Positions 25,657-29,490 of a DNA stretch of 34,650 bases are shown piece by piece. How positions within the stretch are numbered: the first letter of the stretch is position 1; each line of letters starts with the position of its first letter. Made by a program: the position numbers and the translations under genes. The notes beneath the pieces are model-generated. The model was not told the origin of the DNA. It made no database searches and saw only the letters and a list, made by a program, of their open reading frames with translations. This DNA comes from Candidatus Peregrinibacteria bacterium. GTDB lineage: Bacteria > Patescibacteriota > Gracilibacteria > UBA1369 > LOWO2-01-FULL-3. The stretch covers positions 1 to 34,650 of the forward strand of contig WJKE01000061.1 of the NCBI GenBank assembly GCA_014729275.1, in the 5' to 3' direction.

Positions 25657-25706
25657 TAGTAAATTTGAAAAAAATGCCTTTTAAATGGAAAAATTATGTG
25701 CAAATA

Positions 25707-25735
25707 TTGGATTCCTAAAAATAACTATTTATATT
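25707..25735 (+). promoter_or_regulatory. Sigma-70 promoter candidate for the sigma factor gene
   Basis: TTGGAT (25707-25712), 17 bp, TATATT (25730-25735) on the plus strand, with a start expected near 25742. If used, it lies downstream of the earliest in-frame ATG (25685), which supports the later start at 25808. Confidence 0.5.
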
Positions 25736-25757
25736 TTGGAGATAAATACTGAAAGGA

Positions 25758-25811
25758 ATGATGGCGAAACCGGCTATACCTTGCCAAATGACAGGTGTGG
25801 TCTTGTTATGA
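25758..25811 (+). CDS. Possible 17-codon leader peptide overlapping the sigma factor start
   Basis: A short frame opens with two adjacent ATGs (25758, 25761) preceded by GAAAGG and ends in TGA at 25809-25811. That stop overlaps the ATG at 25808 as ATGA. The encoded peptide is MMAKPAIPCQMTGVVLL. The arrangement suggests translational coupling to the sigma factor, but the frame is short enough to arise by chance. Confidence 0.3.
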   Translation: MMAKPAIPCQMTGVVLL

Positions 25812-26536
25812 GTGCCGAATCTATCGTTGAATATCATGCGAAGAGGGTTTGGCAGAAAAATAGAGGCTTTGATTTAGATGATATTATGCAAGAGGCCAGG
25901 ATGGGAGCTATTAGGGCAGCAATAAAATTTGATCCGGATAAGTCTTCTTCTTTTAACACTTACGTTTCTTATTGGGTAATAAATATGATTTCCAGATGGA
26001 TCAGATCCAACCTTTCCGTATTAACAGTGCCTGATCATTTAATGGCAAGAGCAGGTATATATAGGCGTGAAGTTTTTAAGGAAGAATCTCCATCTGTTGA
26101 TGAATTAATTGAAATGTTTGGAGTTTCAAAAGTGACTGCTGAAAAAGTTAAGCAGATAATTGACAATGTTGGTTTTGAAACTTCGATAGATGCTCCGATT
26201 AAATTAGATGAAAATATGTCTTTGAAGGATGTTATTGGAGAGGATTGTGTAGTTTTGGATAAAACTGAAGAAGTAAGGGATAGGGGAAGATTGTTAAATT
26301 TAATAAGGGAAAAGTATTTTACTAATTATAAAAAGAAATTTTTGGAGCGAGATTGGGATATTTTTATAAATCGTTTTGGTTTTAATGAAGATCAAGAAGT
26401 GTTGACTCTTGAGCTTTTGTCTGAAAAACATGGCTTGTCACGTCAAGGGGTTCAATATATTGAAAAGAAAATATTAGCTAAAATATCATCAGATTCTGAG
26501 ATAGTTGAAATGTTGAAAGATTTAGTTGGCCATTAG
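25808..26536 (+). CDS. Sigma-70 family RNA polymerase sigma factor (alternative)
   Basis: Directs RNA polymerase to a promoter subset. From ATG 25808 it has 242 residues. Region 2 is clear: DLDDIMQEARMGAIRAA (core-binding 2.1-2.2), then FDPDKSSSFNTYVSYWVINM and ISRWIRSN (2.3-2.4). Region 3 follows (SVDELIEMFGVSKVTAEKV), and region 4 has a helix-turn-helix, LTLELLSEKHGLSRQGVQYIEKKIL. Region 1.1 is missing, so it is more like a group 2/3 factor than the housekeeping RpoD. The frame is open from ATG 25685, but the first 41 residues do not look like a sigma factor and a promoter candidate lies inside them. The TAG stop shares bases with the TAA of the convergent exchanger gene. Which genes it serves is unknown. 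Confidence 0.88.
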   Translation: MSAESIVEYHAKRVWQKNRGFDLDDIMQEARMGAIRAAIKFDPDKSSSFNTYVSYWVINMISRWIRSNLSVLTVPDHLMARAGIYRREVFKEESPSVDELIEMFGVSKVTAEKVKQIIDNVGFETSIDAPIKLDENMSLKDVIGEDCVVLDKTEEVRDRGRLLNLIREKYFTNYKKKFLERDWDIFINRFGFNEDQEVLTLELLSEKHGLSRQGVQYIEKKILAKISSDSEIVEMLKDLVGH

Positions 26537-27498
26537 ATTAGGTGGAAGGTTTTTCCAATGAAGGCTGCGTAAAGTAGAAGTAGGGTCATGCCTTCCCATT
26601 TTGAAATTTCTTTATCCATAGTCACAAACACATAGAGGATTGTGATGAATACCAATGCCGGAATGGTGAAGGTGATGAATTCTTCAGGGATTGTGAGCGT
26701 TCCGAAGAAAGCGGGAATTCCCATTACTCCCAGCGCATTAAAGATATTGGATCCCGTAATGTTTCCTATTGCGATTCCTGCGTTACCTTTTCTGGCAGCC
26801 ACTACAGAGGTTACCAATTCGGGCAGGGATGTTCCGATTGCGACAGCAGTAACTGCGATTATTTCTTTACCAATGTTTAAAATTTCCGATAAGCGAATTA
26901 CTGAAGTGATTGTGAAATCGGCAGAAAGTATGATTGCGATTCCGGATATAATTAAAATTGCGGGGTATTTTATTCCTATGCGGTTTCGTTTTTTTTCTTC
27001 CTTCCTTTCTTTTTTTATGTCCTTTAAATCCTTGGCTTCAACTTTACGTTCGGATTTGATGTTGTAGAGAACGTATGTGAGTAAGGCCAGGAGGCAAAGA
27101 ATTCCGTCAATGTATGTGAAGATACCGTCTAAAGTGGTCAGGAACAAAAGTATTACTGAACCCATTAAAATTGGAAGGTCGATTTTAATTATGTCCTTGT
27201 CTACGTTTAGAGTTTTTCCTACAATGGCGGCAATCGCTAATACTAATAGGATGTTGGCCAGATTTGATCCGGTTACGTTTGCGATAACGATTTCTGAGTT
27301 CCCGGCAAGTACAGCGCTTACAGATGTTGCGATTTCGGGGAGTGAGGTTCCTACAGCTACTATTGTAACCCCGATAATGAAGGAGGGAATCTTAAATATT
27401 AAACCGATTTTTTCCGCTGTATCTGTAAAGTAGTCTGCGGCTTTTATTAATATGGCTAATGAAGCTACAAAGGCTACTGTCCAAAGTAAAATATCCAT
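26533..27498 (-). CDS. Na+/Ca2+ exchanger family protein (CaxA/YrbG-like)
   Basis: Membrane cation antiporter of the CaCA superfamily. Two inverted alpha repeats are plain: VGTSLPEIATSVSAVLAGN with ANVTGSN (about 49-79) and IGTSLPELVTSVVAARKGN with GNITGSN (about 221-251), each with the ion-binding GTSLPE Glu. About ten hydrophobic segments flank a charged cytoplasmic loop (148-172). 321 residues, normal. With the P-type ATPase at 7193-9766 it gives the window two candidate Ca2+ export routes. It has a full-consensus promoter and sits inside what is normally the rpsJ-rplC junction. Confidence 0.93.
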   Translation of the reverse strand: MDILLWTVAFVASLAILIKAADYFTDTAEKIGLIFKIPSFIIGVTIVAVGTSLPEIATSVSAVLAGNSEIVIANVTGSNLANILLVLAIAAIVGKTLNVDKDIIKIDLPILMGSVILLFLTTLDGIFTYIDGILCLLALLTYVLYNIKSERKVEAKDLKDIKKERKEEKKRNRIGIKYPAILIISGIAIILSADFTITSVIRLSEILNIGKEIIAVTAVAIGTSLPELVTSVVAARKGNAGIAIGNITGSNIFNALGVMGIPAFFGTLTIPEEFITFTIPALVFITILYVFVTMDKEISKWEGMTLLLLYAAFIGKTFHLI

Positions 27499-27524: not shown

Positions 27525-27553
27525 ATTATAAATTTTAGTGTTGGGGATGTCAA
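27525..27553 (-). promoter_or_regulatory. Full-consensus sigma-70 promoter for the exchanger gene
   Basis: TTGACA (27548-27553), exactly 17 bp, TATAAT (27525-27530) on the minus strand: twelve of twelve consensus bases. Predicted start near 27518, leaving about 20 nt of leader. The -35 box partly overlaps the U-run of the rpsJ terminator. Confidence 0.75.
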
Positions 27554-27582
27554 AAAAGCATGCCGGGGGACGACATGCTTTT
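27552..27582 (-). terminator. Rho-independent terminator of rpsJ
   Basis: On the minus strand AAAAGCATG and CATGCTTTT (27582-27574 and 27562-27554) form a 9-bp stem with an 11-nt C-rich loop and the T-run continues to TTTTTT. It lies 22 bp after the rpsJ stop and ends a single-gene transcript. Confidence 0.85.
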
Positions 27583-27604: not shown

Positions 27605-27931
27605 TTAAACTTCCTGCAACATTTTGATTTCGATTTCTACTCCGGCAGGCAGGCTTAGGTTTGAAAGTGATTCGATTGTTTTTGGAGTTGTTTCACTGAT
27701 GTCGATAAGTCGTGCGTGTGTTCGCATTTCAAACTGTTCACGTGAAGTTTTGTGAACGAATGTTGATTTATTTACTGTAAATTTTTCGATTTTAGTTGGA
27801 AGGGGGATTGGTCCGGCAACGATTGCTCCGGTTCTTTCTGCTGTATCGATAATTAGTTTTGAAGTTTCGTCGATTACTTTGTGATCAAAAGATCGAATTT
27901 TGATTCTGATTTTTTGTTTAGCTTGTGCCAT
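27605..27931 (-). CDS. rpsJ: 30S ribosomal protein S10 (uS10, NusE)
   Basis: S10 is a 30S head protein and, as NusE, a transcription antitermination factor with Nus[22 protein letters not shown], the [17 protein letters not shown] segment and the [21 protein letters not shown] region are canonical; 108 residues. Unlike the usual operon-leading position, it stands alone: its own promoter at 28068-28096, an attenuator in the leader (27947-28019) and a terminator at 27552-27582. rplC lies about 2.1 kb away, beyond the sigma factor and exchanger genes. Confidence 0.97.
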
Positions 27932-27946
27932 ATACGGTAGGGGGTT

Positions 27947-28019
27947 AAAAAAATACCGAGTGGGAAGCTCGGTATAAATATCGATTGAAAAATTGCGATT
28001 TGCATTTTCGAGCTGTCCC
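27947..28019 (-). promoter_or_regulatory. Transcription attenuator in the rpsJ leader
   Basis: Terminator form: AUACCGAG (27975-27968) and CUCGGUAU (27960-27953) make an 8-bp stem with a 7-nt loop, followed by seven U (27953-27947), 16 nt before the rpsJ ATG. Antiterminator form: GGGACAGCUCG (28019-28009) pairs with CGAGCUUCCC (27971-27962) over ten base pairs with one bulged C. The two use the same CGAG bases and exclude each other. The trigger is unknown; S10 itself or NusB-S10 is a natural candidate. Confidence 0.7.
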
Positions 28020-28067
28020 GTTGTTACGAGTAATTTCCTAAAAGCAGGAAACTAATTTTGTACTAGG

Positions 28068-28096
28068 TTTATAGCGGGGATTAGCGGGAAAGTCAA
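28068..28096 (-). promoter_or_regulatory. Sigma-70 promoter for rpsJ
   Basis: TTGACT (28091-28096), 17 bp, TATAAA (28068-28073) on the minus strand. Expected start near 28060, giving a leader of about 130 nt. CAAAATTAGTT begins seven bases after the -10 box, as at the rplC promoter. Confidence 0.75.
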
Positions 28097-28296: not shown

Positions 28297-29490
28297 TTAC
28301 TTAATGATCTTTGTCACAATTCCTGCTCCTACTGTTCGTCCTCCTTCACGGATAGCGAATCTTGTTCCTTCGTCCAGAGCGATTGGGCATCCAAGACGTG
28401 CAACCAGATTTACTTTATCTCCGGGCATAACCATTTCTACGTCAGCCGGAAGTTCAACCTCACCAGTTACGTCAGTTGTTCTAATGTAGAATTGAGGTTT
28501 GTATCCTTTGAAGAAAGGAGTGTGTCGTCCACCTTCTTCTTTATTTAATACGTATACTTCACATTCAAATTCTGTATGTGGAGTAATTGATCCAGGTTTA
28601 GCCAAAACTTGTCCTCTTTCAATTTCTTCTCTCTCAATACCTCTAAGTAGAAGACCAACATTGTCTCCGGCTTCACCTCTATCCAGAGTCTTTTTGAACA
28701 TTTCAACTCCTGTGACTACAACTTTTCTTGTGTCATTAATACCAACAATTTCAACTTCATCGTTTGAGTTAATTACACCCTGCTCGATTCTTCCCGTAGC
28801 AACAGTTCCTCTACCTTTAATTGAGAATATATCCTCAACAGGCATTAGGAATGGTTTATCAAGGTCTCTTTTTGGCTCGGGAATGTACGAATCAAGAGTT
28901 TCAAGAAGTTCAACGATTGGCTTGGTAGCTTCTTCGTCATCAGGATTTTCGAGGGCTTTAAGCGCAGATCCTTTAATAATTGGAGTGTCATCTCCAGGGA
29001 ATTCATATTTGTTAAGAAGGTCGCGTACTTCCATTTCTGAGAGTTCAGCGATTTCAGGGTCTGCCATGTCCATTTTATTGAGAAATACAATAATGTGTGG
29101 AACGTTAACCTGTCTTGCAAGTAGAATGTGTTCACGAGTTTGTGGCATTGGTCCGTCAGCAGCAGATACCACTAAAATAGCACCGTCCATTTGCGCCGCA
29201 CCTGTAATCATGTTCTTTACATAGTCGGCATGCCCCGGACAGTCAACATGGGCATAGTGTCGGTTTGCAGTTTCGTACTCCTGGTGAGAGGTTGCAATTG
29301 TAATACCTCTTTCTTTTTCTTCAGGTGCGTTGTCAATTTGATCAAAGGCAACTCCCTTGTTTGTTCCACCGAATTTTTTTGCCGCAACAGTTGTTATTGC
29401 AGCTGTAAGAGTAGTTTTACCGTGGTCTACGTGACCGATGGTACCCACATTTAAGTGTGGTTTACTCCTATCAAATACTCCGTCAGCCAT
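28297..29490 (-). CDS. tuf: Elongation factor Tu
   Basis: GTPase that delivers aminoacyl-tRNA to the ribosome. G1 GHVDHGKT (19-26), G3 DCPGH, G4 NKMD and G5 GSALKA are all present, and domains 2 and 3 are complete (397 residues, ending in [10 protein letters not shown]). The switch I segment reads [14 protein letters not shown], with ATSHQ where most bacteria have STAHV; this variant may help place the lineage. It follows fusA after 107 bp that include a promoter candidate. Confidence 0.98.

Follow-up and report, generated by a model that had tools for sequence, protein, structure and literature searches.

Does the RNA that precedes the gene for ribosomal protein S10 in a member of the Peregrinibacteria control transcription of the gene behind it? 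The initial annotation of a 34,650-nt stretch of DNA from Candidatus Peregrinibacteria bacterium (contig WJKE01000061.1; hereafter, the window) proposed that it does, by attenuation through two mutually exclusive helices. We addressed this question by folding the leader RNA and by comparing it with rpsJ upstream regions from relatives of the window's family and order.

The rpsJ locus and its leader

On the minus strand of the window, tuf ends at 28297 and the rpsJ ATG lies at 27931, with a promoter and a leader of ~130 nt between the two (Table 1). An identical promoter, at an equal distance from the ACAAAA that begins the leader, is found in most relatives. Because rpsJ has its own terminator directly 3′ of the gene, it forms a one-gene transcript in the window, and the same order of rpsJ, terminator, and Na/Ca exchanger gene occurs in several relatives. 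Clear terminators 3′ of rpsJ are also present in other members (e.g. L002, L008, L019, and L025), though not in all. The exchanger gene is next after rpsJ in many relatives. At 27581-27525 of the window, the rpsJ terminator has a U run that overlaps the TTGACA of the exchanger's perfect consensus promoter. The exchanger gene and a plus-strand gene for a sigma-70 region 2 protein, together at 25685-27498, separate rpsJ from rplC.

Table 1. Features of the rpsJ locus in the window
Feature	Position	Strand	Basis
Sigma-70-type promoter, TTGACT-17-TATAAA; expected transcript start ~28061	28068..28096	minus	read from sequence
Whole rpsJ leader RNA	28061..27932	minus	
Leader 5′ end, ACAAAA	28056..28061	minus	nearly invariant across 33 leaders, column counts
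Hairpin P1	28031..28054	minus	two-sided changes in all 9 pairs; loop conserved
P1 loop, GCUUUU (consensus GNUUUU)	28045..28040	minus	loop of strong hairpin
Hairpin P2, CUCGU/ACGGG (consensus CUCGC/GCGGG)	28017..28030	minus	two-sided changes in 4 of 5 pairs
Antiterminator 5′ strand, overlapping the P2 3′ strand	28009..28019	minus	comparison and folding
Conserved ACA inside the antiterminator 5′ strand	28016..28014	minus	column counts
Antiterminator 3′ strand, overlapping the terminator 5′ arm and loop	27962..27971	minus	comparison and folding
Intrinsic terminator, 8-bp stem and U run	27946..27975	minus	folding and comparison
rpsJ, ribosomal protein S10 (NusE), 108 aa	27605..27931	minus	Pfam PF00338, E 1.4e-34
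Intrinsic terminator 3′ of rpsJ	27552..27581	minus	read from sequence, terminator evidence
Promoter of Na/Ca exchanger gene, TTGACA, 12/12 consensus	27553..27525	minus	after rpsJ terminator

The predicted fold of the leader is more stable than those of 200 out of 200 dinucleotide shuffles (z −3.6). Its most conserved part consists of P1, P2, and the sequence GGGACA; the promoter, P2, and this core are additions to the initial annotation. The ACAAAA 5′ end and the U-rich loop of P1, which might be imagined to form a pseudoknot, are both nearly invariant, and variants of the loop generally occur without compensation.

Two helices that share one strand

The 8-bp terminator that had been described just before the rpsJ ATG is borne out by our analysis: the stem-loop ATACCGAG-CUUCCCA-CUCGGUAU spans 27975..27953, and its U run ends ~15 nt 5′ of the start codon. 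The proposed antiterminator likewise stands, with GGGACAGCUCG (28019..28009) and CGAGCUUCCC (27971..27962) forming ten pairs and leaving one bulged C. Both helices use the strand CGAGC and are therefore mutually exclusive. Their predicted energies are −24.0 kcal/mol for the antiterminator state and −26.9 kcal/mol for the terminator state. When we folded growing prefixes of the leader, P1 and P2 appeared earliest, the antiterminator formed from about nucleotide 96 and reached ten pairs at nucleotide 101 with P2 opened, and the terminator state became the lowest in energy from nucleotide 108, so that the antiterminator is predicted to precede the terminator during RNA synthesis. Opening of P2 is unnecessary in most relatives, where the antiterminator begins at the ACA directly after P2.

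Judged from the single sequence, the antiterminator pairing is only moderately unlikely: it is equalled by 7 of 3000 shuffles. Of 3461 stretches of the window, the site itself counted, 32 pair equally well. The antiterminator becomes convincing through comparison, since other genera and families have retained its pairing with compensating changes.

A variable stretch separates the GGGACAGCUCG strand from the terminator. It bears on an alternative mechanism, leader-peptide attenuation, in which translation of a short reading frame would set the fold. In the window, an AUG directly after the first antiterminator strand does open a frame into the terminator region, but the length and sequence of this stretch vary freely and conservation lies instead in P1 and P2. 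We rejected this mechanism, which we regard as highly improbable, because no start codon there is common to the relatives.

Covariation across relatives

In an alignment fitted to the covariance model, with relatedness partly removed, 95% of the cells of P1 and P2 are paired and 13 of the 14 pairs show changes on both sides. The covariation score of the two hairpins in the model-fitted alignment is 0.62, compared with 0.19 in shuffles, and a MAFFT alignment gives a like picture (9 of 14 pairs). For the antiterminator and terminator, paired cells and two-sided changes in a hand-made alignment of 32 leaders both exceed those in 1000 column shuffles, relatedness again being partly removed. The two helices covary on their common middle strand, and one antiterminator position displays four pair types; in L023, one base of the middle strand is mismatched in both helices.

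Because the 32-leader alignment was made by hand, we added an alignment-free test with segments of fixed length. The antiterminator strand pairs with the terminator arm of its own leader at a mean duplex energy of −12.5 kcal/mol versus −9.0 kcal/mol with the arms of other species, a difference for which none of 20,000 permutations was as low, relatedness being partly removed. The advantage of the own arm also holds within the 14 most divergent leaders alone. Covariation in the rpsJ leaders of relatives, which the initial annotation had named as a check, was thus found for P1/P2, the antiterminator, and the terminator; the antiterminator arm is present in relatives; and the covariation of both helices, together with the own-arm pairing test, strongly supports attenuation through helices that exclude each other.

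The ACA inside the antiterminator strand is kept even in leaders whose terminator arm offers it no partner, which would fit a role in recognition.

Distribution of the leader

The rpsJ upstream regions of relatives in the family and order display these elements in many genera. We built two covariance models, R1 from 20 leaders within the family of the window and R2 from 33 leaders. R1 finds matches in 28 of 89 genomes in the order. It also finds leaders upstream of rpsJ in other families (L028, 2e-8; L117, 4e-8; L123, 4e-7; L133, 5e-7; L125, 8e-6). R2 matches 35 of the 353 genomes searched in the class, once per genome, always at rpsJ and always within the window's order; 10 of 379 genomes spread over the phylum match as well, all again in that order. 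Tested on 77 rpsJ loci from other bacteria, Clostridia included, R2 gave no match (best E 3.9), and no Rfam 15 family matched the leader at either the gathering score or a relaxed E-value. Within the sampled genomes, detection goes with the spacing of tuf and rpsJ: the leader is nearly always there when the gap between tuf and rpsJ is at least 165 nt, and none was detected where rpsJ begins no more than ~110 nt after tuf.

Like ribosomal-protein leaders in general, this RNA is structured, conserved, and located in the 5′ UTR of a gene for a ribosomal protein, and the sequence comparison shows that its mutually exclusive terminator and antiterminator have been kept across species, as is expected of an attenuator. 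Judged against Rfam 15 and the 77 other rpsJ loci, it apparently represents a new RNA family. A literature search that left out most subscription journals found no published ribosomal leader for Peregrinibacteria.

A model for autogenous attenuation

We consider it probable (about 0.68) that the leader belongs to the ribosomal-protein leader RNAs and attenuates rpsJ transcription in cis, with S10 in excess causing termination. Sequence comparison and folding show its anatomy, conservation, helix exclusivity, covariation, and restriction to rpsJ; that S10 is the ligand, where it binds, and which way control runs are what we infer. P1, P2, and the ACA that follows would constitute the sensing domain. 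In the default state, the segment 3′ of P2 would pair with the terminator's 5′ arm once this is made, permitting read-through and production of S10. Once S10 outnumbers nascent 16S rRNA, it would bind the P1/P2/ACA domain and hold the antiterminator strand, whereupon the terminator could form and transcription would stop 5′ of rpsJ. Many ribosomal-protein leaders mimic rRNA; neither a covariance model nor a loop scan yielded a match for mimicry of 16S rRNA in this leader.

S10 is the likeliest ligand because rpsJ is alone in its transcript and the leader is found only at rpsJ. The same attenuator might instead respond to something other than S10 alone, such as another ribosomal protein, an assembly factor, or a non-protein signal. 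Some leader-bearing members have rplC and rplD close behind rpsJ, and the E. coli S10 operon is controlled by L4 (PMC10931766), but in the window and several relatives the transcript encodes no ribosomal protein besides S10, making a different ligand unlikely. With S10 as its probable ligand, the leader would offer a compact RNA for asking what this protein recognizes outside the ribosome, and it gives a candidate-phyla lineage a well-supported case of regulatory RNA acting on ribosome supply.

The P1 loop and boxA

The initial annotation had also noted a GCUUUU loop near 28040 that faintly resembled a boxA. The loop is where it was placed (28045..28040); its reading as a boxA is not supported. 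The published boxA consensus is GYTCTTTAANA with a critical C4 (PMC5725501), and the rRNA leaders of 15 genomes of the order carry a boxA that resembles GNYCUUUAACA and has C at position 4. The GNUUUU loop has C at the corresponding position in only 1 of 30 leaders, lacks the AACA, and lies inside a stable covarying hairpin; on these grounds we rejected it as a boxA. In the rRNA leaders (e.g. L140, L147, and L150), a block like AUUUAGARUGUAAUAGAGAA beyond boxA is strongly conserved upstream of 16S.

The same evidence weighs on the idea that the P1 loop serves NusB-S10 as a boxA on which an antitermination complex is assembled, giving positive or Nus-type feedback. All 16 genomes searched encode NusB, so the NusB-S10 complex can exist; the GCUUUUA of the loop loosely resembles boxA, and a putative boxA has been reported near rpsJ in three genera (PMC5725501). 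The usual site of the complex is nevertheless absent from the leader, and we judge this mechanism very unlikely. It is quite doubtful, too, that S10, alone or with NusB, recognizes the GNUUUU loop as a structured relative of boxA. If it did, an antitermination factor would time its own synthesis through a terminator switch, and rRNA antitermination and S10 supply would be linked in Peregrinibacteria.

Comparison with known leaders

Leaders at the S10 gene have been established or proposed in Firmicutes. The RLC-47-1 rpsJ motif of Peptostreptococcaceae is a candidate ribosomal leader for which S10 autoregulation has been proposed (PMC11109978). By that description, it resembles the leader studied here in lying upstream of rpsJ and in its proposed autoregulation, but it is limited to three genera of one Firmicutes family, and R2 had no match at the Clostridia rpsJ loci sampled. 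The S10 r-leader of Firmicutes (Yao et al. 2007, as cited in PMC7247131) is by description also a ribosomal leader at rpsJ, but belongs to another phylum; the RNA described here is another rpsJ leader, in a separate lineage. The leader of the E. coli S10 operon likewise acts at rpsJ, partly through an intrinsic terminator (PMC10931766), although its ligand is L4 and it governs an 11-gene operon, unlike the lone rpsJ of our transcript. The B. subtilis rplJL leader, where L10(L12)4 exerts autogenous control by transcription attenuation (PMC4538822), shares the type of control, with a different protein and RNA.

Variant leaders

The switch is not universal, since three genera (L008, L010, and L021) keep P1, P2, and GGGACA and lack the terminator. 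In these leaders, the P1/P2/GGGACA element sits ~36-39 nt before the rpsJ start codon, which suggests translation control or a lost switch. L018 and L024 carry the leader after tuf without its own promoter and ACAAAA, retaining P1, P2, and the covarying switch. In L016 the promoter and the opening bases of P1 lead into a truncated remnant, an apparent loss. The tuf-rpsJ regions of L114 and L122 are diverged and leader-like, with similar P1 loops, UGAUUUUA and UGCUAUUA, and were missed by the models. L003, L015, and L019 each have a short reading frame placed between the terminator of the leader and rpsJ, so that an extra small gene would come under control of the leader.
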